This document shows, piece after piece, positions 2,231 to 49,599 of a stretch of 64,000 nt of DNA (its first letter is position 1; each line of letters starts with the position of its first letter). Position numbers and translations under genes: made by a program. Source of the DNA: Bordetella genomosp. 4 (GTDB taxonomy: Bacteria > Pseudomonadota > Gammaproteobacteria > Burkholderiales > Burkholderiaceae_B); NCBI RefSeq assembly GCF_002261185.1, contig NZ_NEVQ01000003.1, positions 310,001 through 374,000 on the forward strand. The letters run 5' to 3'. The notes beneath the pieces are model-generated. The model made no database searches. It had not been told where the DNA came from and saw only the letters and a list, made by a program, of their open reading frames with translations.

Positions 2231-2821
2231 TTACGGACGGCCGCCCGTCGGGAAGGGCCACGACGCGGCAGGATTTACCGTGGTTTTTGCGCCTTGCGCA
2301 GCAGCTGCGGTCGGTTGCGCAGCAGGCTTTTTGGCAGCGGCTTTTTTAGCGGCAGGCTTTTTGGCTGCAGCTTTTTTCGCCGGTGCTTTGGCAGCTTTTT
2401 TAGCAGGCGCCTTTTTCGCTGCTTTCTTGGCAACAGCCTTCTTGGCTACGGCCTTTTTAGCAACGGCTTTCTTGGCGACGGCTTTTTTGACTGCCTTTTT
2501 AGCGACGGCCTTTTTAACGGCTTTTTTCGCTACTGCTTTTTTAGCAACCGCTTTCTTGGCGACAGCCTTTTTGGCTACCGCTTTTTTAGCGACGGCTTTC
2601 TTGGCAGCTTTTTTAGCGACAGTTTTCTTCACAGCCTTTTTGGCAGCCGTTTTCTTCACGGCCGGTTTCTTGGCTGCAACTTTCTTCACTGCCTTTTTAG
2701 CCGCGACCTTCTTCACGGCGACTTTCTTCACGGCCTTTTTGGCCGGGGCTTTCTTAGCTGCGGCCTTCTTGGCTGCAACTTTCTTTACCGCTTTCTTTGC
2801 GGCCTTTTTGGCTGTTGCCAT
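2231..2821 (-). CDS. Histone H1-like, Lys/Ala-repeat nucleoid protein (BpH1 type)
   Basis: About 196 residues made almost entirely of Ala, Lys and Val in tandem units such as KKAVA, AKKA and KKVA, ending in a short non-repetitive tail rich in Pro, Ala and Gly ([17 protein letters not shown]). This is the architecture of the Bordetella BpH1/BpH2 and related eukaryotic-H1-tail-like proteins, which bind DNA without sequence preference and affect compaction and gene expression. The ATG at 2821 is chosen because AAGGAG lies 7 nt upstream; an ATG two codons earlier would leave only 1 nt. The repeats are nearly identical at DNA level, so copy number should vary between strains. Long open frames on the opposite strand are a by-product of the repeats. 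Confidence 0.92.
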
Positions 2822-2970
2822 GGTCATGCTCCTTAGGTTCAGGGGTCCCAGAACGTAAACCCGTGCCACCTTCCGTCGGTTAACGGACGATGCCCGGGCT
2901 ATTCATCGGCGCATGCCGCTGCCCCATTCTGGCGACAGCTACTACGGTTTGCGCTAATGAATTCGGCACA

Positions 2971-3017
2971 GCCATTTGATATGGCCCCCGCGATTCGCGC
3001 GAGCCATCTCAAATGGC
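2971..3017. repeat. Imperfect 15-bp inverted repeat between nrdB and the histone gene
   Basis: Arms 2971-2985 and 3003-3017 pair with one mismatch across a 17-nt loop that itself contains CGCGATTCGCG. It lies in the 317-bp gene-free stretch (2822-3138), upstream of the histone-like gene and downstream of nrdB. It could be an RNA hairpin or a protein-binding site; the sequence does not decide. Confidence 0.5.
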
Positions 3018-3020
3018 GCC

Positions 3021-3048
3021 AGTAGGCAACCTTTTCAGGTTGCCTACT
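3021..3048. terminator. Hairpin downstream of nrdB, probable terminator with weak T tract
   Basis: A perfect 12-bp stem (3021-3032 with 3037-3048, TTTC loop) lies about 90 bp past the nrdB stop on the minus strand. No T run follows on either strand, so it may slow RNA decay rather than terminate. Confidence 0.5.
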
Positions 3049-3138
3049 GCTTGGTACTGCGTATTCGAATACCTGGCCGACGGAGCTGTTATCAGGGCGC
3101 TGCGCAAATCACATTGCGCGCGGCTCGCCTGAAGGTCG

Positions 3139-4341
3139 TCATTCCCAGCTGAGCGTACCGCCAGTCTGGTATTCGATCACGCGTGTTTCGAAAAAGTTTC
3201 GTTCCTTTTTTAGGTCGATCATTTCTGCCATCCACGGGAAGGGATTTTCTTCCTGAGGGAACAGCGGTTCAAGACCAATCTGTTGGCAGCGACGGTTTGC
3301 GATGAAGCGCAGGTAGGATTTAAACATAGGAGCGTTCAATCCCAACACACCACGCGGCATCGTGTCTTCGGCGTAAGCGTACTCGAGTTCTACTGCCTTT
3401 TGGAATAGTGCGCGGATTTCTTCGCGAAATTCCGGCGTCCACAAGTGAGGATTTTCGAGTTTGACGGTGTTGATCAGGTCGATGCCGAAGTTGCAGTGCA
3501 TGGATTCATCGCGCAGGATGTACATGTACTGCTCGGCAGCGCCGGTCATTTTGTTCTGGCGACCGAGTGCCAGAATCTGCGTGAATCCAACGTAGAAGAA
3601 CAGGCCTTCCATGAGGCACGCGAACACGATCAGCGATTTCAACAACGTCTGGTCGGCTTCGGGCGTGCCGGTTTTGAAGTTGGGATCGGCGATGGCGTCG
3701 ATGAACGGGATCAGGAACTCGTCTTTGGCACGAATGGACGGCACTTCGTTGTAGGCATTGAAGATCTCGGCTTCATCGAGATCCAGGCTTTCGACGATGT
3801 ATTGATATGCGTGCGTGTGAATGGCTTCTTCGAATGCCTGGCGCAGCAGGAACTGGCGGCACTCAGGCGCAGTGATGTGGCGATAGGTGCCCAGCACGAT
3901 ATTGTTCGCGGCCAGCGAGTCGGCCGTGACGAAGAAACCCAGGTTGCGTTTGACGATGCGGCGCTCGTCTTCGGTCAACCCGTTCGGGTTTTTCCAGAGC
4001 GCGATGTCGCGCGACATGTTGATTTCTTGCGGCATCCAGTGGTTGGCGCAAGTGGCCAGGTATTTTTCCCAGGCCCATTTGTATTTGAACGGCACCAACT
4101 GATTGACGTCGGTTTCGCCGTTGATGATGCGTTTGTCCGCAACTTTGACGCGATGTGCGGTGGCATCGGCGCTCGCAGGCACAGAGGCGGCTTGCGGAGC
4201 TGCCGGGGGCAGCGCCGCATCCGCGAACGCGCCCGTTGCTGCGCGCGTCGGTTGTGCAGCCGCCGCCGGCTGTCCGCCCGCTGCGGGAGCGGGGGCTTTA
4301 GCCGGTTGCGTTGCGAGGTTGTCGTCTTCCCAATTAAGCAT
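3139..4341 (-). CDS. nrdB: Class Ia ribonucleoside-diphosphate reductase, beta (radical) subunit
   Basis: 400 residues. NrdB houses the diiron-tyrosyl radical cofactor used by NrdA to reduce ribonucleotides to deoxyribonucleotides. The cofactor ligands are visible: Asp141 (TADSLA), Glu172 and His175 with radical Tyr179 in EAIHTHAY, Glu245 (LMEGLFF), and Glu279/His282 in ESMH. Spacing of the EAIHTHAY motif matches E. coli Glu115-His118-Tyr122. Residues 10-62 form an Ala/Pro/Gln-rich extension absent from E. coli NrdB, likely a flexible linker. The C-terminal tail, which docks to NrdA, ends in GGTLSWE. The gene lies 27 bp after nrdA and has its own GGAG site, so the two form an operon. Confidence 0.97.
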
Positions 4342-35023: not shown

Positions 35024-35413
35024 TTCTTGCGGATGCTATCTCGCGAAAGCAAATCAGCACCCGGCGTGCCTGGGCGCGCTTTTTTCGGCTGCTGTTGCGC
35101 ACCATTCGTGCGCCTAATGCGCGCTGCTTGTGCAGTCGCGGCGTGAGTTTGCGTCTCTGATATGCACTGAAACGTGCATTACCAGCTTTCACACGATTTT
35201 GATGATTCTTTGCTTGATTCGCGGAACTTGTTCCTGGATGCTATAGCCTAACGTAACACAGGCTCGTTAACCCAATCTATGGTGTGTGCCGAAAGCAACA
35301 TATCAAGATGATGTGCATAATCCCATTACGAGAAAGTCTAGCGACATTCGAAAATGAGGAACACAATGGGATGACGGACTCGTTAACCGACCATGAGCTG
35401 TAGGAGGTTCTCC
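35024..35413. promoter_or_regulatory. Long control region upstream of the prkA operon
   Basis: A 390-bp stretch without a credible gene. Three things stand out: a 10-bp direct repeat CTCGTTAACC at 35263-35272 and 35379-35388; an 8-bp inverted repeat ATCCCATT/AATGGGAT at 35320-35327 and 35365-35372; and a TATAGC box with TG ahead (about 35249-35256) that could be an extended -10. E. coli yeaGH depends on stationary-phase and nitrogen sigma factors, but I cannot find a convincing sigma-54 site here. Confidence 0.4.
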
Positions 35414-37339
35414 GTGCAAAACATCGTCGAAGGCTTCAAGTCGCTGTATGCGCAAGACCAGGAAACCGAGCTTTCCCTCGAGGAATATCTCGATCTGGTC
35501 AGAAGTGATCCCATGGCATATGCCAGTCCCGCAGAACGCATGTTGGCGGCGATAGGGGAGCCGGAACTCATCGATACGCGCAATGATCCGCGCTTGTCCC
35601 GGTTGTTTTCCAACCGAGTGGTGCGGCGCTATCCCGCTTTTAAAGAGTTTTTCGGTCTGGAAGACGTCATCGATCAAATCGTGGCTTTCTTCAAGCACGC
35701 GGCTCAAGGGCTCGAGGAACGCAAGCAGATCCTGTACTTGCTGGGGCCGGTCGGCGGCGGTAAATCCTCCATTGCAGAACGGTTAAAAGTGCTGATGGAG
35801 GCTTATCCCATCTACGCGCTGAAAGGCTCGCCCATCAACGAGTCGCCCCTGGGTCTGTTTCATCCCGACCGGTTCGGCGATACGCTTGAAAAAGAATACG
35901 GCATTCCCCGCCGCTATCTCAGCGGCATCATGTCGCCGTGGGCAGTCAAACGCTTGAAGGAGTTCGATGGCGACATCTCGAAGTTTCGCGTGGTGCGCCT
36001 GAACCCGTCAGTATTGCGCCAAGTGGCGATTGCGAAAACCGAGCCCGGCGACGAAAACAACCAGGATATTTCCTCGCTGGTCGGCAAGGTCGATATCCGC
36101 AAACTCGATCGCCACTCGCAGGACGATCCCGACGCCTACAGCTACTCCGGCGGCTTGTGCCTGGCCAACCAGGGCCTGCTCGAATTCGTCGAGATGTTCA
36201 AGGCGCCCATCAAGATGCTGCACCCCTTGCTGACGGCGACGCAAGAAGGCAACTTCAAGGGCACCGAAGGGTTCTCCGCCATTCCGTTCAATGGCCTGAT
36301 CCTGGCGCACTCGAACGAATCCGAATGGCAGACCTTCCGCAACAACAAGCACAACGAGGCCTTCCTTGACCGTATCTATATCGTCAAGGTGCCGTACTGC
36401 CTGCAAGTCACCGAAGAAATCGAGATCTACAACAAGCTCCTGCGCAATAGTTCGCTGTCCAAGGCGCCATGCGCCCCGGGCACGCTGGATATGATGGCGC
36501 AGTTCTCGGTGTTGACGCGTCTGAAAGAGCCGGAAAATTCCAGCATCTATTCCAAGCTGCGGGTCTATGACGGCGAATCGCTGAAAGACGTCGATCCCAA
36601 AGCCAAGGCGTTGCAGGAATACAAAGAGTACGCCGGTACCGACGAAGGCATGACCGGGGTATCGACCCGTTTTGCCTACAAGATACTGTCCAGCGTGTTC
36701 AACCACGACCAGACCGAGGTGGCCGCGAACCCTGTGCACCTGATGTACGTGCTGGAGCAGCGCATCGGCCGCGAGGACTACCCCGAGGAAATCCGCCGCC
36801 GTTATCTGGATTTCATCAAGGGCTACCTCGCCCCGCGCTATGCGGAATTCATCGGCAAGGAAATCCAGACCGCTTATCTGGAGTCCTATTCCGAGTACGG
36901 GCAAAACATTTTCGACCGCTATGTAACTTTTGCCGATTGCTGGATCCAGGACGAGGAATTCCGCGATCCCGAGACGGGCGAGAGCTTTGACCGCAGCGCG
37001 TTGAACGACGAGCTCGAGAAAATCGAAAAACCTGCGGGTATTGCCAACCCCAAGGACTTCCGCAACGAAATCGTGAACTTTGTATTGCGCGCCCGTGCCA
37101 ATAACGCTGGCCGCAATCCGACCTGGACCAGCTACGAAAAACTGCGCGAAGTGATCGAGAAGAAAATGTTCTCGAATACCGAAGACCTGTTGCCGGTGAT
37201 CTCTTTCAACGCGAAAGCTTCCGCGGAAGACAAATCCAAGCATCAGAGCTTTGTCGATCGTATGGTGGACAAGGGCTACACCGAGAAGCAGGTCCGCTTG
37301 CTGTGCGAGTGGTATTTGAGAGTGAGGAAGTCATCCTGA
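35414..37339 (+). CDS. prkA: PrkA (YeaG) AAA+ serine protein kinase
   Basis: 641 residues from a GTG at 35414, with TAGGAGG 6 nt ahead. The N-terminal AAA+ part has a Walker A GPVGGGKSS (Lys about residue 117); the C-terminal part is the PrkA kinase domain. In E. coli, YeaG acts with YeaH in sustained nitrogen starvation and stationary-phase survival, and in Bacillus PrkA affects sporulation. It is the first gene of a three-gene operon with yeaH and spoVR, the conserved set in Proteobacteria. Confidence 0.96.
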   Translation: MQNIVEGFKSLYAQDQETELSLEEYLDLVRSDPMAYASPAERMLAAIGEPELIDTRNDPRLSRLFSNRVVRRYPAFKEFFGLEDVIDQIVAFFKHAAQGLEERKQILYLLGPVGGGKSSIAERLKVLMEAYPIYALKGSPINESPLGLFHPDRFGDTLEKEYGIPRRYLSGIMSPWAVKRLKEFDGDISKFRVVRLNPSVLRQVAIAKTEPGDENNQDISSLVGKVDIRKLDRHSQDDPDAYSYSGGLCLANQGLLEFVEMFKAPIKMLHPLLTATQEGNFKGTEGFSAIPFNGLILAHSNESEWQTFRNNKHNEAFLDRIYIVKVPYCLQVTEEIEIYNKLLRNSSLSKAPCAPGTLDMMAQFSVLTRLKEPENSSIYSKLRVYDGESLKDVDPKAKALQEYKEYAGTDEGMTGVSTRFAYKILSSVFNHDQTEVAANPVHLMYVLEQRIGREDYPEEIRRRYLDFIKGYLAPRYAEFIGKEIQTAYLESYSEYGQNIFDRYVTFADCWIQDEEFRDPETGESFDRSALNDELEKIEKPAGIANPKDFRNEIVNFVLRARANNAGRNPTWTSYEKLREVIEKKMFSNTEDLLPVISFNAKASAEDKSKHQSFVDRMVDKGYTEKQVRLLCEWYLRVRKSS

Positions 37340-37351
37340 GCGAGGTGAATC

Positions 37352-38617
37352 ATGAATTCACTGATCGACCGGCGTCTGAATGGCCGCAATAAAAGCGCGG
37401 TCAATCGGGAACGCTTTCTCAGGCGATACAAAGACCAGATCCGCAAGGCCGTGCAGGATATGGTGCGCGAGCGGTCCATCGAAGACATGGACCAGGGTGG
37501 GGAAATCAACCTGCCCACTCGCGATATCTCCGAGCCGCATTTCAGGCACGGCCAGGGTGGCGATCGCGAGCTGGTGCATCCTGGCAACCGCGAGTTCGTC
37601 AAAGGCGATACGTTCCAGCGTCCGCAGGGCGGGCAGGGACAAGGCGGGTCTGAGCCCGGCGAAGGTGAATCGGTAGATCAATTCACCTTCAGCCTGTCTC
37701 GCGCCGAATTCCTGAACCTGTTCTTCGAGGACCTGGAGCTGCCGCACCTGATACGTACCCAGCTGGGCGACGTAGAGCAAAAGAAATGGCAGCGCGCGGG
37801 GTATACGACCACGGGCTCGCCGAGCCTCTTGAGCGTCAGCCGCACGCTCAAGGCCTCGTTATCGCGACGCGTCGCATTGACCGTCGCTGCGCGTGCCGCG
37901 TTGGAGGCTGCACAGGCCAAACTGGATGCTGCGATCGCGAAGGGTGCTCCGCAAGCTGAGATAGACGCCTTGCGCCAAGAGGTCGAAGATTGCCAGCAGC
38001 ACCTGGACAATGTCCCGTTTCTCGACGATCTGGATCTGCGCTATCGCAACCGTATTTCTGTCTCCATGCCGATGGCGCGCGCCGTGATGTTCTGTCTGAT
38101 GGACGTCTCCGGCTCGATGGACGAAGGCAAGAAAGATCTCGCTAAACGCTTCTTTACGCTGCTGTACTTGTTCCTTTCGCGTAAATACGAGCATGTGGAT
38201 GTGGTGTTCATCCGTCACACCGACAATGCCGAGGAAGTCGACGAGCAGACCTTTTTCTACGATCCCAAGAGCGGCGGCACCATCGTGTTGTCGGCCCTGG
38301 AGCTGATGAACGAGATCGTGCAGAAACGCTACCCGCCCAGCGCCTGGAACGTCTATGCGGCGCAGGCCAGCGATGGCGATTCATTTGGCGCCGACGCCGG
38401 TAAAAGCGCGCGTTATCTGGCTGAAAATCTGTTGCCCGCCACGCGCTATTTCGCGTACATCGAGGTCCCGGATTCGCCAGAGGCCCGCAAGAGCAGCCTG
38501 TGGGCCGAATACGAACAAAAAACGGCGCCGCATTTTGTGATGCGCCGGATCTGCGAACGCGGAGAGATCTATCCCGTGTTTCATGATCTGTTCAAGAAGG
38601 AGCCCGTAACATCATGA
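37352..38617 (+). CDS. yeaH: YeaH/DUF444 protein with VWA-like domain
   Basis: 421 residues. A basic N-terminus (IDRRLNGRNKSAVNRERFLRRY) and a glycine-rich linker (about residues 90-108) precede a C-terminal von Willebrand A-type domain. Its MIDAS metal site DVSGS starts at Asp251, with a Thr and Asp in later loops. YeaH is the partner of the YeaG/PrkA kinase. It starts 12 bp after prkA and overlaps spoVR by 4 bp (ATGA), so the three genes are translated as one block. Confidence 0.95.
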   Translation: MNSLIDRRLNGRNKSAVNRERFLRRYKDQIRKAVQDMVRERSIEDMDQGGEINLPTRDISEPHFRHGQGGDRELVHPGNREFVKGDTFQRPQGGQGQGGSEPGEGESVDQFTFSLSRAEFLNLFFEDLELPHLIRTQLGDVEQKKWQRAGYTTTGSPSLLSVSRTLKASLSRRVALTVAARAALEAAQAKLDAAIAKGAPQAEIDALRQEVEDCQQHLDNVPFLDDLDLRYRNRISVSMPMARAVMFCLMDVSGSMDEGKKDLAKRFFTLLYLFLSRKYEHVDVVFIRHTDNAEEVDEQTFFYDPKSGGTIVLSALELMNEIVQKRYPPSAWNVYAAQASDGDSFGADAGKSARYLAENLLPATRYFAYIEVPDSPEARKSSLWAEYEQKTAPHFVMRRICERGEIYPVFHDLFKKEPVTS

Positions 38618-40179
38618 ACGCACTGACTGGCTCTCGTGCCGAGCTGGAGGCCCTGCAAGGGGCTCGGCCCATTTCCGAAGACTCCGAATGGACCTTCGAA
38701 CTCATCCAGCGTTATGACGAAGCCATCGCCGAGGTGGCCGAAGAATTCGGTCTGGACACCTACCCGAACCAGATCGAGGTGATTACCTCTGAGCAGATGC
38801 TGGACGCCTATGCGTCAGCGGGCCTGCCCATCGGCTATCCACACTGGTCCTATGGCAAGGAATTCATCCGCAACGAGCAGTTCTATCGCCGCGGGATGCA
38901 AGGGCTGGCGTATGAGATCGTCATTAACTCCAACCCCTGCATTGCCTATCTGATGGAAGAAAACACCATGGCCATGCAGGCCCTGGTGATCGCCCATGCC
39001 TGCTACGGGCACAACTCGTTTTTCAAAGGCAACTATCTGTTCCGTCAGTGGACGGACGCCGACAGCATTCTGGATTACCTGGTCTTTGCGCGTAAATACG
39101 TCATGGACTGCGAAAGCCGCTACGGTATCGATGCGGTGGAGTCTTTGCTGGACTCTTGTCATGCCCTGACGCCTCACGGTGTAGACCGCTACAAGCGTCC
39201 CACCCCTATGTCGTACAAAGAAGAAGCCCAACGCCAGGCCGAGCGGGCCGAACACGCCCGGCTGCAATACAACGATCTATGGCGCACCTTGCCGCGTGTC
39301 GAAGCCGACGCGGCCTCGGAAAAGCAGCGCGTCGTCTTTCCTCCAGAGCCCGAGGAAAACCTGCTGTATTTCATCGAGAAGCATTCGCCGAAACTGGAGC
39401 CCTGGCAGAAAGAACTGGTGCGCATCGTGCGCAAGATCGCGCAGTATTTCTACCCGCAAGGGCAGACCAAGGTCATGAACGAAGGCTGGGCCACGTTCTG
39501 GCACTACACCATCCTGAATCGCCTGCACGAAAAAGGCCTGGTGACCGATGGCTTCATGATGGAGTTCCTGCAGAGCCATACCAATGTCGTCAGCCAACGC
39601 GGTTTTGACGAGCGAGGCTACGGCGGCATCAATCCCTATGCGCTGGGGTTTGCCATGATGCAGGACATCCGCCGTATCTGCGAATCACCCACGGAAGAGG
39701 ACCGAAAGTGGTTCCCTGATATCGCAGGCAGCGACTGGATCAAGACGCTGGATTTTGCAATGCGCAATTTCAAGGACGAGTCGTTTATCTCGCAATACCT
39801 GTCGCCGCGCCTCATCCGTGAGTTCCGCTTTTTCGCGATCGCTGACCACGAGGCCAACCCTGTGCTGGAGGTCGCCGCGATTCATGACGACGAGGGCTAT
39901 CGCCACATTCGTAAACTCCTGGCCGAGCAGCACAACCGGGACAATCAGGTGCCGGACATCCAGATCGTACGTTATCGCCGCGAGTCGGATCGTTCGTTGG
40001 TGCTGCGGCACTTGCGCACGCGAGGCCGGCCATTAGCGGCCGAAGATGCCGATCAGGTCATGAAGCACCTGGGCCGCTTATGGGGCTTTAAAGTCCGGCT
40101 GGAAGAAACCGAGGCTGATGGGACGGTAAGCTCATACCGCGAGGTCAACCCGACTGCGCCGTATCGCGAAGGTATCTAG
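38614..40179 (+). CDS. SpoVR-family protein (YcgB)
   Basis: 521 residues, the usual length of the SpoVR/YcgB family. The protein has the conserved segments EDSEWTFELIQRYDEAIAEVAEEF and a His-rich AHACYGHNSFFKGN. The metal-binding-like motif EGWATFWHYTILN near residue 291 recalls zinc peptidases. Biochemical activity is unknown; in Bacillus SpoVR is needed for spore cortex formation. It is translationally coupled to yeaH (ATGA overlap), which ties it to the PrkA stress pathway. Confidence 0.94.
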   Translation: MNALTGSRAELEALQGARPISEDSEWTFELIQRYDEAIAEVAEEFGLDTYPNQIEVITSEQMLDAYASAGLPIGYPHWSYGKEFIRNEQFYRRGMQGLAYEIVINSNPCIAYLMEENTMAMQALVIAHACYGHNSFFKGNYLFRQWTDADSILDYLVFARKYVMDCESRYGIDAVESLLDSCHALTPHGVDRYKRPTPMSYKEEAQRQAERAEHARLQYNDLWRTLPRVEADAASEKQRVVFPPEPEENLLYFIEKHSPKLEPWQKELVRIVRKIAQYFYPQGQTKVMNEGWATFWHYTILNRLHEKGLVTDGFMMEFLQSHTNVVSQRGFDERGYGGINPYALGFAMMQDIRRICESPTEEDRKWFPDIAGSDWIKTLDFAMRNFKDESFISQYLSPRLIREFRFFAIADHEANPVLEVAAIHDDEGYRHIRKLLAEQHNRDNQVPDIQIVRYRRESDRSLVLRHLRTRGRPLAAEDADQVMKHLGRLWGFKVRLEETEADGTVSSYREVNPTAPYREGI

Positions 40180-40332
40180 CTGAGCGTGGCTCGCTGCGTC
40201 GCTGTTTTCTATGCCACCCAGCGTAGGCGCGGGCGACACATTTGCGCATGCGACTTCTACATGCAAGTGACGGTTTGCTGGCGTCTGCGGCGCCATCGTA
40301 TCAATCGTCATCTGCCACACATAGTGACCCCC

Positions 40333-40338
40333 TATAAT
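40333..40338 (+). promoter_or_regulatory. -10 box upstream of the nadQ-like gene
   Basis: A perfect TATAAT with no clear -35 at the right distance. The 246-bp spacer after spoVR has no terminator that I can see. Confidence 0.4.
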
Positions 40339-40425
40339 TCAGAGCAGCCTACAACCTGAAGCGTGTGTCAGGCTGTGGGACTACCTTTTGCCCGTCATGG
40401 TTTGCTTTGCATTCTGGAGCCGCTA

Positions 40426-41388
40426 TTGCCCGATTCCGCCGAAAATTTCGTGTCTGCCGAACTGGTCGCCGTCCTCGTGGCAGTGACCAAGGGTGAGCCG
40501 CGTGTGCTGGTTCGCACCCATGACGCCGCCAACGGGGCACGCACGAAATACGACGGCTTGCCTTCGGGAGCGTTTCAGCCCGGGCATCGGTCTTTACAGG
40601 CAGGGATGCGGGCATGGGTAGAAACCCAGACCCACCATCCGCTGGGCTACGTCGAGCAGTTGTACACCTTTGCCGATCACGATCGGTTTGACGAGTCTGG
40701 TCCACGCGCGATTTCGATCAGCTACCTCTGTTTGACCCGGGAAGGCGATGCAACCGGCGGCACAGAGGCGGTGTGGCAGGACTGGTACCGCTATTTCCCT
40801 TGGGAAGACCGTCGCGGTGCCGAGCCCGCTGTATTGACCGAGTCGATCGTGCCGCGGCTGCGTCAGTGGGTCGCCGATACGCGAGACGCTGGTTTGCGTG
40901 CGCTGCGTGCGCAACGCTTGGCCGTGGTTTTTGGTCTGGACGATGCGCCGTGGAACGAAGACATGGTGCTGCAGCGTTACGAGCTCATGTACGAAGCTGG
41001 GCTCGTGCCTGAGGCGACGCGGCATACCCCTTCGGCCGAGCGGGATGCGGTGCCAGGTGATCCGATGCGCACGGACCATCGCCGCATCCTGGCGACCGGG
41101 ATTGCGCGCCTGCGTGCCAAGATCAAATATCGGCCGGTGGTTTTCGAGCTGTTGCCAGCCGAATTCACCCTGCTGCAATTGCAGCAGACCGTCGAGGCGC
41201 TGGCCGGGCGGGATTTGCACAAACAGAATTTCCGTCGCTTGATTGAACAGCAAAACCTGGTCGAGGAAACCGGCGGCATGTCGGCCGCGGGAGCAGGCAG
41301 GCCGGCCAAGCTATTCCGATTCCGGCGTGATTTGCTGGCCGAGCGCGCTATCGCCGGCAGCAAATTGCCGCTGTCGCGTCAGGCCTGA
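40426..41388 (+). CDS. NAD-pathway transcriptional regulator, NadQ/NrtR type (Nudix-like domain plus winged helix)
   Basis: About 320 residues from a TTG at 40426 (GGAG 6 nt ahead); the frame is open back to a GTG at 40363, and either start is possible. The N-terminal half is Nudix-like (ISISYLCLTRE, WVETQTHHPLGYVEQLYTF), but the catalytic Nudix box is degenerate: the REUXEE block reads MRAWVETQTHH. This fits a ligand sensor rather than a hydrolase. The C-terminal half, from about residue 222 (KIKYRPVVFELLPAEFTLLQLQQ...NFRRLIEQQNLVEETG...GRPAKLFRF), is the NrtR-type winged helix. Such proteins repress NAD synthesis genes in response to NAD metabolites. nadC follows it, with two operator-like palindromes between them. 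Confidence 0.85.
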   Translation: MPDSAENFVSAELVAVLVAVTKGEPRVLVRTHDAANGARTKYDGLPSGAFQPGHRSLQAGMRAWVETQTHHPLGYVEQLYTFADHDRFDESGPRAISISYLCLTREGDATGGTEAVWQDWYRYFPWEDRRGAEPAVLTESIVPRLRQWVADTRDAGLRALRAQRLAVVFGLDDAPWNEDMVLQRYELMYEAGLVPEATRHTPSAERDAVPGDPMRTDHRRILATGIARLRAKIKYRPVVFELLPAEFTLLQLQQTVEALAGRDLHKQNFRRLIEQQNLVEETGGMSAAGAGRPAKLFRFRRDLLAERAIAGSKLPLSRQA

Positions 41389-41435
41389 CCGCTTTATTCG
41401 CGCAACGCTTTGTCGCGCCGCACAACAAAAAGTGC

Positions 41436-41470
41436 TTGACAGTCATTTATGCTCAAAACTAGCATAAATG
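41436..41470 (+). promoter_or_regulatory. nadC promoter with overlapping perfect palindrome (candidate NadQ operator 1)
   Basis: TTGACA (41436-41441) and TAGCAT (41460-41465), 18 bp apart, form a good promoter. A perfect 10-bp inverted repeat, CATTTATGCT/AGCATAAATG with a 7-nt spacer (41444-41470), lies between and over them, the position of a repressor site. Confidence 0.75.
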
Positions 41471-41476
41471 CGTGAT

Positions 41477-41496
41477 GCCCGATGGGCGCTTTTTTT
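41477..41496 (+). terminator. Terminator-like mini-hairpin in the nadC leader
   Basis: GCCC-GAT-GGGC (41477-41487) followed by GC and seven T (41490-41496), 20 bp before the nadC start. The stem is short; it could attenuate transcription or be chance. Confidence 0.35.
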
Positions 41497-41506
41497 GGCT
41501 TCTGAA

Positions 41507-41524
41507 ATACTCAAAATGAGCATA
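41507..41524 (+). promoter_or_regulatory. Candidate NadQ operator 2 at the nadC start codon
   Basis: ATACTCAAAATGAGCATA repeats the core of operator 1 (GCTCAAAACTAGCAT) and has CTCA...TGAG dyad symmetry. It overlaps the ATG at 41516. Confidence 0.55.
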
Positions 41525-42379
41525 TCTAATACTCTTGCTGTCCCGCCGTTGCCAGCCGTGTTGCTGGAGCCCTTAGTGCGTAACGCGCTCGTCGAGGACC
41601 TGGGACGTGCCGGTGACATCACCACCGATGCGATCGTGCCAGCGGACGCCATGGCAGAAACCCGCCTGGTCGCTCGACAAGACGGCGTGCTCGCGGGTCT
41701 GGATCTGGCACGCATCGCATTCGAATTGGTCGATCCGCGCATTGAGTTTCAGCCTCGCCTGGCTGATGGCGCGACGCTCGCGCCCGGCGCAGAAATCGCG
41801 CTCATCCGCGGACCGGCGCGCGGCATGCTGACAGGGGAACGCGTGGCGTTGAATTTCCTGTGCCATCTGAGCGGCGTGGCATCGGCCACCGCATCGATCG
41901 TGCATTCCATCCGCGAATATCGCGCGCGTGTGACATGCACGCGCAAGACCATGCCGGGTCTGCGCGCCGTACAGAAATACGCCGTCCGTGTCGGCGGTGG
42001 CAGCAATCACCGGTTCGGCCTGGACGATGCCGTATTGATCAAGGACAACCACATCGCCATCGCCGGTGGCGTACGCCAGGCCGTCGAACGCGCGCGTGCG
42101 GCGATCGGGCATCTGGTCAAGATCGAGTTGGAGGTCGACACGCTGGAGCAATTGCGCACTGCGCTCGACCTGGGTGTGGAAGTCGTGTTGCTCGACAACA
42201 TGGGACCCGACATGTTGCGCGAGGCCGTGCGTATGGTGGACGGCCGTGCGATCACCGAGGCCTCCGGCCGCATTACGCCCGAGACGGCGCCTGCGCTGGC
42301 CGCCACGGGTGTGGATCTGATGGCCATCGGATGGTTGACCCACAGCGCGCGGGTATTGGATATCGGGCTGGATAGCTAG
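41516..42379 (+). CDS. nadC: Nicotinate-nucleotide pyrophosphorylase (carboxylating), quinolinate phosphoribosyltransferase
   Basis: 287 residues from the ATG at 41516; an in-frame start at 41468 lies inside the operator and adds no family sequence. NadC makes nicotinate mononucleotide from quinolinate and PRPP. The substrate site block CTRKTMPGLRAVQKYAVRVGGGSNHRFGLDDAVLIKDNH is intact, followed by the IELEVDTLEQL and EVVLLDNMGPD motifs. No nadA or nadB is adjacent. In Bordetella, which often lack de novo NAD synthesis, NadC is known to serve in quinolinate salvage. A Bug gene follows at 17 bp. Confidence 0.96.
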   Translation: MSISNTLAVPPLPAVLLEPLVRNALVEDLGRAGDITTDAIVPADAMAETRLVARQDGVLAGLDLARIAFELVDPRIEFQPRLADGATLAPGAEIALIRGPARGMLTGERVALNFLCHLSGVASATASIVHSIREYRARVTCTRKTMPGLRAVQKYAVRVGGGSNHRFGLDDAVLIKDNHIAIAGGVRQAVERARAAIGHLVKIELEVDTLEQLRTALDLGVEVVLLDNMGPDMLREAVRMVDGRAITEASGRITPETAPALAATGVDLMAIGWLTHSARVLDIGLDS

Positions 42380-42396
42380 AGGCACCGGAGCAATCG

Positions 42397-43425
42397 ATGA
42401 AAACGCGTTTCAACCTTTCGCGGCGCGCTGCGATGTTGACGATGTCTGCGCTGGTTGGATTGGGGGCGGCGTTGGGGGGAATGGGCCTGCTGTCCGCAGC
42501 GGGATCCGAGACTCGCACCGCGGCACAGAGTTTTCCCAATCGGCCCATCACGATCATTGTGACGTTTCCTCCTGGAGGAGGAACAGACTTGTTGGCCCGC
42601 AAGCTGGGCGCCTTGATGCAGGAACGCCTGGGACAGGCTGTGGTGGTGGAGAACCGGCCGGGGGCGAGCGGCAATATCGGCGCGCGCGCCGTAGCAGACG
42701 CTGCGCCTGACGGCTACACCTTGTTGATGGTCAATAGTTCGTTTGCCATCAACCCAGGGGTATACGGGAATCTCGGCTTTGATCCCAAAGGCGATTTCCA
42801 GGCCGTAATCAATGTGGCGTTTGTGCCCTCTGTATTGATCGTGCCGCAGGATTCCCCCTATCGCACGCTCACCGATTGGATGGATGCCGGCCGCAAACCC
42901 GGTGCGATACTGCCATTTGCTTCTTGCGGCAATGGCACCCCACAACATCTCGCCGGAGAAATGTTGACCGCCAACGCGCATTTACCCGTGCAACATGTGC
43001 CGTATCGTGGCTGCGGTCCTGCGTTGACAGACGTGCTGACGGGCCAAGTCCCCATGGGCATCGTGACAGCGTCCAGCGCATCGCCATTTCTGCAGGCCGG
43101 CAAATTACGAGCGTTGGCAGTGACCTCGCCGCAGCGCTCGACGCTGATGGCGGACGTGCCGACCGTGGCAGAGCAGGGCATGCCCGGATACGAGCTGGAT
43201 CAATGGCATGGGCTGTTGGCCCCGGCGCAAACGCCTAAAGACATTCTCGCGAAATTGAATCGCACCGTCGCGCAGATCATGAAACAACCCGACGTCCGGC
43301 GCGATTTGCTGCAGTTGGGATTCAACCCGACGACCAGCACCTCGGTAGAGTTTCAGTCGCTGATTGGCCAGGATATTGACCGGTTTGCGTCGCTGACGCA
43401 GCGGATCGGACTGCGGGCGGATTAG
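42397..43425 (+). CDS. Bug/TctC-family periplasmic solute-binding protein next to nadC
   Basis: 342 residues. The N-terminus (MKTRFNLSRRAAMLTMSALVGLGAALGG...) is a long export signal with a twin Arg but without the full Tat consensus. The mature part shows Bug signatures: FPNRPITIIVTFPPGGGTDLLAR, VVVENRPGASGNIGA, DGYTLLMVNSS and HVPYRGCGPALTDVLTGQV. Bug proteins bind small carboxylates in the periplasm. The gene starts 17 bp after nadC, so it is probably in the same transcript and under the same NAD-linked control. Uptake of a pyridine carboxylate such as quinolinate or nicotinate is a reasonable guess, not a demonstrated role. Confidence 0.92.
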   Translation: MKTRFNLSRRAAMLTMSALVGLGAALGGMGLLSAAGSETRTAAQSFPNRPITIIVTFPPGGGTDLLARKLGALMQERLGQAVVVENRPGASGNIGARAVADAAPDGYTLLMVNSSFAINPGVYGNLGFDPKGDFQAVINVAFVPSVLIVPQDSPYRTLTDWMDAGRKPGAILPFASCGNGTPQHLAGEMLTANAHLPVQHVPYRGCGPALTDVLTGQVPMGIVTASSASPFLQAGKLRALAVTSPQRSTLMADVPTVAEQGMPGYELDQWHGLLAPAQTPKDILAKLNRTVAQIMKQPDVRRDLLQLGFNPTTSTSVEFQSLIGQDIDRFASLTQRIGLRAD

Positions 43426-43451
43426 CTGCTGATCCGCCCGCTATGCGGCTG

Positions 43452-44426
43452 TTATTCCAGCACGACTTTGGCGTCGGTGGCGATCTTGCCGAATTTGACG
43501 GTCTCGTCAGCGATGTAGGCTTTAAAGGCTGCAGCGTCTTTGTACGACACGGTGATGCCGGCAGCTTCCAGCTTTTCGGAGACGTCGGGCATGCTCAACG
43601 CTTTATTGAGTGCGTTGCTCAATGTGGCGACGACAGCAGGATCTGTTTTGGCAGGCGCCCACAGGCCAAACCACAAGACGACGTCCACGCCTGCCAGTTC
43701 GGGCGTTTCTGCCAAGGCGGGCACGTCCGGGGCGGCCTTCGTGCGGGTGGCCGAAGTCACGCCGATGCCTTGCAGTGCGCCCGAGCGGATATGGGGCAGG
43801 GCAGTCGAAAATACGAGCACGCCGCCTTCGATTTGGCCACCTACGATGTCCGCCAGGGCCGGTGCGCCGCCTTTGTACGGCACGTGGAACATCTTGCCTC
43901 CGCTTTCTTTGGCGATCAGTTCGCCAGCCAGGTGCAGTGGGGTGCCGATGCCGGAGGTGCCGTAACGGAATTCTTCGGTTTTGGTGCGCGCGAGAAACTC
44001 TGCCACCGTCTTGACGCCGAGGTTGGGTGCGGCGACCAAGGCCAGGGGTTGCGCGCCGATCTGTCCGATGGGTGCCAAGTCGCGTTGGCCATCGTATTTC
44101 ACATGCGGATTGATCTGGCTGGCAATCGAGATCTCGCTCGGCGAGCCGAGCAGAATCGTGTAGCCGTCCGCGTCGGCGTTGACCACGCGGTTTGCACCGA
44201 TGACGCCACTGGCGCCCGGTGCATTCACGATGACGACGCTTTGGCCTAACTGGTCGCCCATGCCTGCGCCGACGACGCGGGCGATCAGGTCATTGCTGCC
44301 GCCAGAGGCATAAGGCACCACGATGGTCACAGGTTTATCTGGAAATGTGCTGGCCAGCGATGGCGCCGACAGCGCAGCCGTGCAGGCCGTAAAAACCCCG
44401 GCCAGATATTTTTTTAGTGTGGACAT
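43452..44426 (-). CDS. Bug/TctC-family periplasmic solute-binding protein (amidohydrolase operon)
   Basis: 324 residues with a signal peptide (MSTLKKYLAGVFTACTAALSAPSLAS, cleavage about residue 26). Bug motifs are FPDKPVTIVVPYASGGSNDLIAR, VVIVNAPGASGVIGA, DGYTILLGSP and HVPYKGGAPALADIVGGQI. It is the last gene of a minus-strand operon after a PyrE-like protein and an M20 amidohydrolase; a hairpin lies in the gap before it. The neighbour suggests an N-carbamoyl or ureido-type acid as solute, by inference only. It faces the nadC-linked Bug gene tail to tail. Confidence 0.92.
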   Translation of the reverse strand: MSTLKKYLAGVFTACTAALSAPSLASTFPDKPVTIVVPYASGGSNDLIARVVGAGMGDQLGQSVVIVNAPGASGVIGANRVVNADADGYTILLGSPSEISIASQINPHVKYDGQRDLAPIGQIGAQPLALVAAPNLGVKTVAEFLARTKTEEFRYGTSGIGTPLHLAGELIAKESGGKMFHVPYKGGAPALADIVGGQIEGGVLVFSTALPHIRSGALQGIGVTSATRTKAAPDVPALAETPELAGVDVVLWFGLWAPAKTDPAVVATLSNALNKALSMPDVSEKLEAAGITVSYKDAAAFKAYIADETVKFGKIATDAKVVLE

Positions 44427-44472: not shown

Positions 44473-45768
44473 TCAATTTGTGACTTGTACCGATTGACGA
44501 GGTGGAATTGTGCCGTTCAGAGCGCGATGAAGCAAATCGGTTCCCAACAGAAAGTCTTCGATGTCCATGGCTTCGTGCGGATTGTGGGATCCGTTTGCGT
44601 TGCGTATGAACACCATGGCCGATGGAATGCCGGCATTGGCAAATACCGATGCATCGTGCCCGGCACCGCTGGGAATACGTTCCAGCGTCATGCCCGTTTG
44701 CGCTGCCGCTGATTCCAGCTTTGCTATCCAGGCCGGATCCATCGTTGCCGGTTCTGTAAAGAGACGTTCGTCGAACTCAAAACGCACGCCTCGACTCTCC
44801 TCGATGGCGCGGCATTCGTCGCGCATCAGGGTGTAGAAGCGTTCCAGTGTCTGCGTGTCCTGGCTGCGCACCTCAAAGCTGAGTTGGACTTCGCCCGGAA
44901 TGACGGATACAGCATGCGACTGTTGGGGCGTCGAGCAAATGCCGCTGGTCATGACCAGATCCATGCCCATCTGCAGCAGGACCCGCCAATGTTCATCCAT
45001 GCGTGACAGCAGTTCCGCTACGGCCAGCAGCGCGTCTTTACGCAGCCAGCGCGGCACCGCGCCCGAGTGGCCGGTTTCACCGACACAGCGTACGTGATTG
45101 TGCCGGATGTTGCCTCGAATGCCAGTGACTGCGGCAACCGGCCACTGACGAGCGACCATGACCGGGCCCTGCTCGATGTGCAGTTCCAGATAAGCGCCCA
45201 TCCGGGCAGGATCAATCATCGGTTCTGCACGGCGGACTGCTTCAATATCGACGCCACTGCGGGCCATCGCGTCGCCCAGTGTGCCTTGCCCGCCGCGGTG
45301 AGGCATGTTCAACGCGGATGCAGGCAAGCGTCCCAGCAGTGCGAGGGACCCCATATAGGCCTTGCCATACCAGGCGCTTTCCTCGCCGCGCAAGGCCAGA
45401 ACGCGCACTGGCGGCGCATCCTCGTGATGTCCGCGCAGGCTGGACAGCACCAGCATGCCGGAGACCACGCCTGCCAAGCCGTCAAAGTTGCCGCCCTGCG
45501 GGACGGAGTCCACGTGCGATCCGATCGTGACAAAGGGATCGGGGCGCTGGTCCTGCGGCAGCCACATCCACAGATTCTGCGCACCGTCACGTTCATATGC
45601 CAGACCCAGGCGTTCGGCATGGCGCTCCAGAATCCGCAAGGCGGCCTCTTCGCCTGCGCCATAGCTTTCACGCGTCACGCCCAGGCCGTCACGCGTGGCC
45701 TCGCGGATTTCGGCGAGAATCGTTTGCGCCAGATCGCGCAAGAGCGGGGATGTCCGACTGGTCGTCAT
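44473..45768 (-). CDS. M20-family Zn-dependent amidohydrolase (N-carbamoyl-amino acid hydrolase / allantoate amidohydrolase type)
   Basis: 431 residues from the ATG at 45768, which overlaps the stop of the upstream gene (ATGA). The enzyme family hydrolyses N-carbamoyl-L-amino acids, ureidoglycine or related C-N bonds with two metal ions. The ligand pattern is present: His and Asp in GSHVDSVPQGGNFDG, Glu-Glu in ALRGEESAWYG, His in ELHIEQGP and a C-terminal His in SGAGHDASV; GSHNPHEAM carries further conserved His. The usual EEGSRF block reads EESAWYG, so the substrate may differ from the classic enzymes. Coupled with a PyrE-like protein and a Bug protein, a small uptake-and-hydrolysis unit is likely. 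Confidence 0.9.
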   Translation of the reverse strand: MTTSRTSPLLRDLAQTILAEIREATRDGLGVTRESYGAGEEAALRILERHAERLGLAYERDGAQNLWMWLPQDQRPDPFVTIGSHVDSVPQGGNFDGLAGVVSGMLVLSSLRGHHEDAPPVRVLALRGEESAWYGKAYMGSLALLGRLPASALNMPHRGGQGTLGDAMARSGVDIEAVRRAEPMIDPARMGAYLELHIEQGPVMVARQWPVAAVTGIRGNIRHNHVRCVGETGHSGAVPRWLRKDALLAVAELLSRMDEHWRVLLQMGMDLVMTSGICSTPQQSHAVSVIPGEVQLSFEVRSQDTQTLERFYTLMRDECRAIEESRGVRFEFDERLFTEPATMDPAWIAKLESAAAQTGMTLERIPSGAGHDASVFANAGIPSAMVFIRNANGSHNPHEAMDIEDFLLGTDLLHRALNGTIPPRQSVQVTN

Positions 45769-46436
45769 GCGCCGGTTCCTCCGTGGCCGATGGACCATGC
45801 CACCGGGTCTGCGGCGAAATCGGCCAGCATGGCTGCCTGTGCGTCATTGAGTTGTCCGCTGGCGAGCAGTGCCCGATGCAGATGCGGCCATGACGCCAGG
45901 GCATGCAATTGCAGCGAATGGTCTGCGAGTGTCTGGTTTTCCTGCGCGTAGAGCGCATAGTCCAGCAGGACCATTACATGTTCCACCGTGGGACCCGACT
46001 GGCGCAGCGCAGCGACCGCGCCGGCCTTGGAGCGGCCATCGGTTGTGATGTCATCGACCAGCAGTACGCGGGCATCAGGTGGCAGCCGGCCTTCGAGTTG
46101 AGCGGTGATGCCCCAGCCTACCGGCCGTTTACGCAAATACAGCATGGGCAGTTGCAGCCGTTCGGCCAGCCAGGCCGCGATGGCGATGCCCGAGCTCTCC
46201 GTGCCCACGATGGCATTGATCTGGCCCGCTGCAATGACCGGGGCGATCGCGCGTGCGGCGATGTCCATGATCTCGGTGCGCCATTGCACATCCGACATCA
46301 ATACATGGGCATCCACGTAGACTGGGCTGGCCCAGCCCGAGGTGTAGAAAAAGGGTTGGTCTGATGCGATGCGGACGGCGCCCAGCGCAACGAGCGCCTG
46401 AGCGACACGCGGGGCGTCGGAAACGGAGAGAAGCAT
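45765..46436 (-). CDS. Orotate phosphoribosyltransferase-like protein (PyrE family)
   Basis: 223 residues. The PRPP-binding motif VLLVDDITTDGRSK (near residue 125) and the N-terminal FFYTSGWASPVYVDAH block identify the type I phosphoribosyltransferase of the orotate group. GTESSGIAIA replaces the usual GP(A/E)YGG(V/I)P loop. It is not in a pyrimidine operon: it is the first gene of a unit with an amidohydrolase and a Bug protein, behind a LysR gene. It may be a second copy used for salvage of a pyrimidine-like acid. Whether a canonical pyrE exists elsewhere cannot be told. Confidence 0.85.
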   Translation of the reverse strand: MLLSVSDAPRVAQALVALGAVRIASDQPFFYTSGWASPVYVDAHVLMSDVQWRTEIMDIAARAIAPVIAAGQINAIVGTESSGIAIAAWLAERLQLPMLYLRKRPVGWGITAQLEGRLPPDARVLLVDDITTDGRSKAGAVAALRQSGPTVEHVMVLLDYALYAQENQTLADHSLQLHALASWPHLHRALLASGQLNDAQAAMLADFAADPVAWSIGHGGTGA

Positions 46437-48294: not shown

Positions 48295-49599
48295 GGCTCT
48301 ACCCCATAAACGGGGGATGGGCATTCATCAGACTCGGTTAATCACACCGTTCCAACCGCACTGAGCCAAGACTCTCATGCGGTAATTCTCAAAATTTCTG
48401 AACCCAAACGCCCGGCGTGAGAGCATCTCCATCTTCGTATGGAATCCCTCGGTGATCCCGTTGGACTTGGTGAAACGCCACATTCGTACGATCGGCTCCA
48501 GCCACGATAGTAACGTCGCGGCCAGCGCCTTGGCCGGACTTTGCTCGAACTGCCGGATCAACGCCAGGAATTTGGGTAGCATTTTCTGGGAGCGTTCGGC
48601 CTTCAGGCTCTTCAGGACTAAAAAGCCGTTGAGCTGCTGCTTGGCAAAATACAGCGCCTGCAGCACCGGCATCTGTGCCAGGTACTGGTGCAGGTTTTCC
48701 TTCTGCAGGGCGGTCAGTTTCCAGTGATGGCGGCGCATCAGGCTTAATAGTCCACGGTTTCTGCGACCGTCGGGATCGTGCTGTTGCCACAGCTTGAGGA
48801 AATGGTGATTCACCAGCCGAATGACGTGGAAACGGTCAGCCACAATCATGGCATTGGGGAAGTACCGTTGGGCAATTCGGCGATAGGTCTCGGACAAATC
48901 CATGACGATGACCCGCACGTGCTCCTTGCCCGGCAAACGCTGCAAATAGCGATGCAGACTGTCCTCTGAGCGCCCCAGCACGACATCGAAGACCTTATGG
49001 TTCTTTAAATCCACCAGCGTCGTGGCGTAGCCCTTTTTACGACTGAAAAAGTGTTCATCGATCCCCAGCACCTGCGGGCAAGCCCGGCTCGAGAGCTCTG
49101 AGACGCGCTGCCTCACAAACGATTGATACCAGCGCTCGACCGTCGCGCTGCCAATCCGATGCGTGACCGTCAGCTTGCGTTGACTAACGCCGCCCTCGTG
49201 GGCCTCAAACACCTCCAGCCGATAGGCCTCGGTGGCCCGAAACCGAGGGCGAATCCCAGAAAATCGATGCCGGAAATAGCGATGGCACTCAGTGCAGTGG
49301 TACTTGGGCACGCTCAGGTGCAACACCATCAACTGATTACCCTGACGAGTGTGTTTAACGGTGCGCCGATGCGTGGCCTTAATGCGCAATCCGTCGTGCG
49401 AACAATACTCGCACACCGGCCGCTTCGCCGGCCTGGCCCAGACGTGAATGTCTCGGCGCCTCTCGACCCGCTGAACTACTAAATCCCGCAACCCTAAGAT
49501 AGAATCGACTGGGGACATCGGCATTGCCTCCATTAAACCTGTTTCTTCGCAAAAACAAGTCTAATGAATGTCGGTGTCCCCCGTTAATGATGTAGAGCC
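48295..49599 (-). mobile_element. Complete ISL3-family insertion sequence, 1305 bp
   Basis: One transposase gene lies between terminal inverted repeats of about 23 bp with three mismatches (left end starts GGCTCTACCCCAT, right end on the minus strand GGCTCTACATCAT; both then share AACGGGGGA). A further shared CATTCAT-AGACT block lies just inside. Exact 8-bp duplications flank it, the size expected for ISL3 elements, so the copy is intact and the insertion probably recent. Confidence 0.95.
48328..49533 (-). CDS. ISL3-family transposase
   Basis: 401 residues, full length for the family. The N-terminal zinc ribbon is CEYC...CTEC (ZF-ISL3, about residues 41-84), followed by a helix-turn-helix (VSQRKLTVTHRIGSATVERWY). 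The DDE core has Asp in VLGIDEHFFSRKKGY and VIVMDLSETYRRI, the AND-RFHV-like ADRFHVIRLV block, and Glu in SNGITEGFHTKMEMLSRRAFGFRNFENYRMR. No stop or frameshift is present, so the element should be active. It is read against the tRNA-Ser gene. Confidence 0.96.
   Translation of the reverse strand: MEAMPMSPVDSILGLRDLVVQRVERRRDIHVWARPAKRPVCEYCSHDGLRIKATHRRTVKHTRQGNQLMVLHLSVPKYHCTECHRYFRHRFSGIRPRFRATEAYRLEVFEAHEGGVSQRKLTVTHRIGSATVERWYQSFVRQRVSELSSRACPQVLGIDEHFFSRKKGYATTLVDLKNHKVFDVVLGRSEDSLHRYLQRLPGKEHVRVIVMDLSETYRRIAQRYFPNAMIVADRFHVIRLVNHHFLKLWQQHDPDGRRNRGLLSLMRRHHWKLTALQKENLHQYLAQMPVLQALYFAKQQLNGFLVLKSLKAERSQKMLPKFLALIRQFEQSPAKALAATLLSWLEPIVRMWRFTKSNGITEGFHTKMEMLSRRAFGFRNFENYRMRVLAQCGWNGVINRV

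Follow-up and report, generated by a model that had tools for sequence, protein, structure and literature searches.

We consider it quite probable that the nadC locus described here is a nadC-bug69 operon repressed by NadQ, and that NadQ also governs a remote nadA-nadB pair. The locus lies in a 64-kb stretch of DNA (the window; contig C19, bases 310001-374000) from a genome of 5.53 Mb in 23 contigs. Among named relatives, nadC identity was highest to Bordetella sp. 02P26C-1, at 92%, followed by 82% to B. ansorpii and 76-80% to Achromobacter, and on account of these identities the host is placed in the Bordetella group. As listed below, nadQ, nadC and a TctC/Bug gene are found on the same strand and in this order, which is that of the nadQ-nadC-bug69 units reported for Bordetella, Achromobacter and others (Sorci 2024, PMC11452294), and the likeness includes the regulator NadQ, NadC, an orphan Bug protein of the Bug69/27 type and the lack of a membrane partner. 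The unit and its main idea are already in print and are mostly known biology; the newer detail is a conserved double-operator promoter with an odd build.

40363..41388, plus strand: nadQ, transcriptional regulator; open reading frame from GTG, with an inner TTG preceded by GGAG as alternative start
41436..41465, plus strand: promoter P1; -35 TTGACA (41436-41441), -10 TAGCAT (41460-41465), spacer 18
41447..41467, no strand: operator op1, NadQ-type site; 2 mismatches; within the 10-7-10 inverted repeat 41444-41470
41476..41496, plus strand: terminator-like short hairpin (41476-41488) and T7 run (41490-41496)
41505..41525, no strand: operator op2, NadQ-type site; 3 mismatches; overlies the nadC start codon
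41516..42379, plus strand: nadC, quinolinate phosphoribosyltransferase; TIGR00078
42397..43425, plus strand: bug69-type periplasmic binding protein gene (TctC family); 2qpq match, pocket residues
43413..43441, no strand: inverted repeat spanning the bug stop codon; sits between convergent genes

The earlier note had called the regulator in front of nadC NadQ/NrtR-type. A NadQ-type gene is indeed present 5' of nadC (40363-41388, outside the segment which that note described), with an uncertain start codon, and the first half of the label holds: its best PDB relative is 7q91, 'NADQ transcription factor' (E 9.4e-106), aligned over query residues 30-339, so that the kinship with a characterised NadQ (COG4111) extends across most of the protein. 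The NrtR half does not hold. NrtR is an ADP-ribose-responsive regulator, and what the protein has in common with it is the winged-helix DNA-binding domain. Pfam matches were limited to this part (NrtR_WHD, 85.5 bits), whereas the N-terminal part gave no Nudix match at E 0.001, and the score against the curated NrtR model of NCBIfam was 52.7 bits, compared to a cut-off of 400. The 'NAD-responsive' of the earlier note is likewise unproven; the title of Minazzato 2022 terms NadQ 'ATP-responsive'.

The NadC protein scored 326 bits against TIGR00078 (cut-off 198), and its gene is present as a single copy in the genome, without an evident Shine-Dalgarno sequence. As had been proposed from the letters alone, a second core site lies on the nadC start codon: the ATG at 41516 is located inside op2 (41505-41525), and an in-frame ATG inside op2 was found in all 18 Bordetella and Achromobacter loci, the window counted. 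An upstream ATG at 41468 is disfavoured as the nadC start, as a stop codon in the nadC frame precedes op2 closely in 7 of 28 loci (L024, L025, L026 and L028-L031). The bug gene begins 17 nt after nadC, at 42397, as noted before, with GGAG in the gap, and we infer that the two genes are co-transcribed.

A scan of 40100-43600 gave TTGACA-18-TAGCAT (41436-41465) as the sole sigma70-like promoter, which is weak evidence by itself since shuffled sequences gave a mean of 1.4; transcription from P1 would start near 41472. The -10 hexamer (41460-41465) is overlapped by the inverted repeat CATTTATGCT-7-AGCATAAATG (41444-41470). The latter had been described as a perfect 27-bp palindrome between the -35 and -10, and the repeat is there, but it consists of 10-bp arms around an unpaired 7-nt centre, and it covers the -10 instead of lying in front of it. 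Such a repeat is not remarkable per se, because exact 10-bp arms with a spacer of 3-12 nt occur at 8 places in the window (24 rows; 20 Markov copies averaged 1.05). What is remarkable is the match to the NadQ consensus, given in PMC5343134 as ttATRCTCannntGAGYATaa, and its conservation. When up to 4 mismatches to this consensus were allowed, op1 and op2 were the sole sites in all 64 kb of the window; 20 copies of it generated by a first-order Markov model contained none at up to 3 mismatches. With up to 3 mismatches allowed, the whole genome (5.53 Mb) contained four sites: one pair at nadC and another before nadA on contig C22, hence at NAD-biosynthesis genes, with 2-3 mismatches per site. The control, for which the pattern was read backwards, gave 2 places in the whole genome at the same threshold, versus 4 for the true pattern, and therefore the case for the operators is carried by their placement in two nad promoters and by conservation rather than by the number of sites.

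In the aligned promoters of relatives, op1 departs from the consensus at one place (TAG for GAG), which generates TAGCAT, and op1 apparently serves as the -10 box too, its right half supplying the hexamer. A perfect TTGACA is located 17-18 nt before this TAGCAT in 24 of the 30 composite loci. NadQ bound to op1 would cover the spacer and the -10 and so block RNA polymerase binding, and NadQ bound to op2 would cover the start codon and block promoter clearance or elongation, so that repression may be exerted at each of the two sites. A possible second promoter at op2, with the T run and GACC as -35, was rejected by eye: the sole fitting -10 has a 19-nt spacer and puts the start inside nadC. Looping between op1 and op2 at a fixed helical phase is not supported either, as the gap between the two sites at nadC promoters varies from 15 to 76 nt.

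Conservation of the nadC-Bug order in relatives, which the earlier note had proposed to check, was borne out in 27 of the 30 beta loci with this nadC type (the window and 29 others), where a Bug gene directly follows nadC; nadQ is directly 5' in 25, and all three genes are present in order in 24. The exceptions are L038, L054 and L055, which lack the Bug gene, and L054, L055, L058, L064 and L100, which lack an adjacent nadQ. The whole promoter pattern was found without mismatch in 39 of 200 family genomes (10 of 43 genera) and, when read backwards, in none of the 200. This pattern demands a T6 run and a gap of 6-9 nt, so the spacings in the 30 composite loci, which are those of its matches that have loci, are partly due to selection.

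The best PDB relative of the window Bug is B. pertussis Bug27 (2qpq), at 400.7 bits compared to 192.7 for the next, which makes Bug27 the closest of the Bugs with a solved structure. All seven pocket residues named in PMC11452294 (Gly21, Thr22, Ser74, Cys136, Gln142, Cys165 and Thr183 in its numbering) are present in the window Bug. For the pocket alignment we used 20 nadC-linked Bugs, the window Bug and 10 other Bugs of the host genome, and added Phe16, Asn72 and Asn78 as neighbours of our own choice, since Phe12 and Asn74 of PMC11452294 misfit the chain numbering. These ten positions are identical in 21 of the 21 aligned nadC-linked Bugs. The pocket set is absent from the ten other Bugs of the host genome (nine top paralogues and the convergent neighbour), none of which contains either cysteine. 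Docking in PMC11452294 has the ring nitrogen held by Asn228; by our count, Gln occupies 228 in both Bug27 (2qpq) and the window Bug, and residue 227 is Asn in the former and Asp in the latter.

Quinolinate is bound with a Kd of 70 nM by Bug69 and of 136 nM by Bug27, and thermal shifts with nicotinate and nicotinamide are far weaker than with quinolinate (PMC11452294). Because binding has been shown for these two proteins and the seven pocket residues are kept, quinolinate is likely the ligand of the window Bug as well. Uptake of 'quinolinate or nicotinate' had been suggested before; the kept pocket favours the former, and the weak shifts speak against nicotinate, as they do against nicotinamide. 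The Bug protein would capture quinolinate in the periplasm and take part in its transport together with a membrane partner, and NadC would turn quinolinate, imported or made by NadA and NadB, into nicotinate mononucleotide for NAD. The transport role is unproven, because mutation of bug69 did not impair the growth of B. bronchiseptica on quinolinate (Brickman 2017, as cited in PMC11452294). This lack of a growth defect would fit a protein that acts as a quinolinate sensor, or that binds another carboxylate, with its gene beside nadC for regulation only, and so would the fact that neither the nadC-bug unit nor its surroundings encode a membrane partner; a signalling role was raised in PMC11452294. 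We consider this unlikely, however, as the pocket residues are kept in the window Bug, Bug69 and Bug27 bind quinolinate at sub-micromolar levels, and the linkage of Bug to nadC is maintained in 27 of 30 loci.

Compared to the nadQ-nadC-bug69 systems of Bordetella and Achromobacter, the host is different in that no second Bug27/69-type protein was found among 150 scored Bug-like matches (206 candidates), the next best reaching 254 bits. The nadC-linked Bug is seemingly the sole one of its type, so that the Bug69 uptake question could be addressed here without the proposed Bug27 redundancy. The Bug/TctC family as such is large in this 5.5-Mb genome, with at least 150 genes scored.

A second difference is that the host carries nadA and a nadB-like gene elsewhere. 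nadA is located on contig C22 (E 8.8e-104), with the nadB-like gene next to it and two NadQ sites in front; the name nadB-like is based on this position and on 39-44% identity to the gene which, in alpha loci, separates nadA from nadC. Because both genes are present, the host is probably capable of quinolinate synthesis; its genome also contains two matches to nicotinate phosphoribosyltransferase. The term 'salvage unit' in the earlier note is therefore too narrow. That the cell depends on external pyridine carboxylates, imported and used via this unit, seems very improbable. The arrangement is best known from bordetellae without nadA and nadB (PMC11452294), and there was no NadA match in L024 and L025, two of the nearest relatives, for whose genomes completeness is not stated; nevertheless, the host itself has nadA on C22 with the nadB-like gene behind NadQ sites, and NadA was found in 7 of the 9 genomes from its genus, the host counted. 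It was also found in 10 of 29 beta genomes with this nadC type, including 5 of 15 Achromobacter. Neither the absence of nadA nor joint control of both branches is general in the group.

Under the NadQ-repressed operon that we favour, the remote nadA-nadB pair would be held by NadQ through a similar pair of sites, and because the regulator is the same and the site pair similar, one signal would adjust de novo synthesis and the capture of quinolinate jointly. The host adds a lineage in which NadQ is apparently over both; NadQ co-regulation has been predicted in Delftia and Comamonas (PMC11452294). Two NadQ sites are also present before nadA in relatives. At the host nadA, the arms of the op1 repeat reach 15 bp (8 outer plus 7 inner pairs); the arms are 13-15 bp at nadA of five Achromobacter, and the six other nadA promoters of the genus have only 0-3 outer pairs. 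A different layout was observed in Oligella urethralis and an Alcaligenaceae bacterium (L105, about 239-1400, and L106, about 2553-3738), where nadQ and nadA are oriented divergently, the stretch between them contains a NadQ site without mismatch, and nadC has no site.

The alpha nadQ-nadA-nadB-nadC loci (regulon in PMC5343134) share NadQ, paired sites and the same NadC type with the window. In these loci, two NadQ sites precede nadA, nadAB lies between nadQ and nadC, the gaps between sites are mostly 5-7 nt, and there is no Bug gene. NadC of the window is 63-76% identical to alpha NadC, compared to at most 53% in the 65 further genomes of the order that gave a match, and in a quick tree of 43 NadC proteins from hand-chosen rows, the NadQ-type beta NadC grouped with alpha NadC to the exclusion of 15 others from the order, at a support of 91 (not starred). 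For the host NadA, on the other hand, identity is 57-73% with the NadA proteins of 27 other genomes from the order and only 33-37% with those of the alpha loci. Since NadC is nearest to alpha proteins and NadA nearest to order relatives, we infer that nadQ-nadC derives from an alpha-type source and that native nadAB then came under NadQ control.

The remaining element of the promoter is the T run, which in the window ends 8 nt before op2. A run of at least six T's ending 7-8 nt before op2 was found in 24 of 28 nadC promoters (missing in L025, L038, L073 and L100), where shuffling of the same bases would yield 0.03; these relatives are not independent, as 15 of the 28 are named Achromobacter, and L054 and L055 were excluded since they have no site. 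With one nadC locus per lineage (10, hand-picked), the run was at 7-8 nt in 6, versus 0.02 expected. It was also found in 14 of 15 two-site nadA promoters (missing in L104; shuffle expectation 0.10), a set from which L105 and L106 (one site), L109 (no site) and L152 and L153 (repeats of L127 and L131) were excluded. As a control for the run, the 28 alpha loci are of little use, since most of their gaps are too short for one. A role of the run as translation enhancer is disfavoured, as its spacing to op2 is kept at nadA too, where the start codon is farther away.

A terminator-like hairpin precedes the T run in 31 of 40 distinct nadC leaders and in 1 of 11 distinct nadA leaders, counted among pattern-fitting loci only, so that the host's own nadA promoter is not among the 11; nadA leaders are shorter than nadC leaders and too short for much of a hairpin. 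The simplest and most likely reading is that the hairpin is the nadQ terminator, and that hairpin and T run before op2 would end nadQ transcripts. The hairpin lies downstream of P1, and nadC transcripts must cross it; together with the T-run-to-op2 distance, which is fixed at both nadC and nadA, this could mean that hairpin and T run form an attenuator in the nadC leader acting with NadQ at op2. We give this second reading less credence, as most nadA promoters have the T run but no leader hairpin (found in 1 of 11 distinct leaders), a distribution more in keeping with a nadQ terminator, and the window hairpin itself (41476-41488) is no better than shuffles (z -0.5).

Tentatively, and with the nadQ terminator still the preferred role of the hairpin, the parts could also be combined into a composite device. 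In such a device, op1 would have been bent from the consensus to be the -10, and a T6-8 run 7-8 nt before op2 would be part of the switch; at nadC, a hairpin would be added that joins repression to transcript ending, and NadQ, having come with the alpha-type nadC, would have captured native nadAB via the same module. The T run may act here as a phased bend, as a NadQ contact, or as a release point for polymerase halted at op2. Its fixed spacing to the operator provides a concrete element to mutate for studying the mechanism of NadQ repression. The titles and abstracts searched contained no description of a promoter with op1 as -10 and such a T run; Brickman 2017 or Minazzato 2022 may contain one.

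At its 3' side, the nadC-bug unit is probably closed by the inverted repeat at 43413-43441. Beyond it, a second, unrelated Bug gene (43452-44426, minus strand) is convergent to the unit; it was rejected as a member, having 33% identity and no pocket set. It is adjoined by genes for an M20-type hydantoinase/carbamoylase-like amidohydrolase (44473-45798, minus strand) and a phosphoribosyltransferase-domain protein (45765-46436, minus strand), and these three genes may constitute a carbamoyl- or pyrimidine-related uptake unit of their own. Directly 5' of nadQ, a trio of genes (35393-40179, plus strand) comprises a 648-aa open reading frame, which by eye we take to be PrkA-like, and, by family scan, DUF444 and SpoVR proteins. 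Further downstream, a 401-aa open reading frame (48328-49533, minus strand) resembles, by eye, an insertion-sequence transposase.
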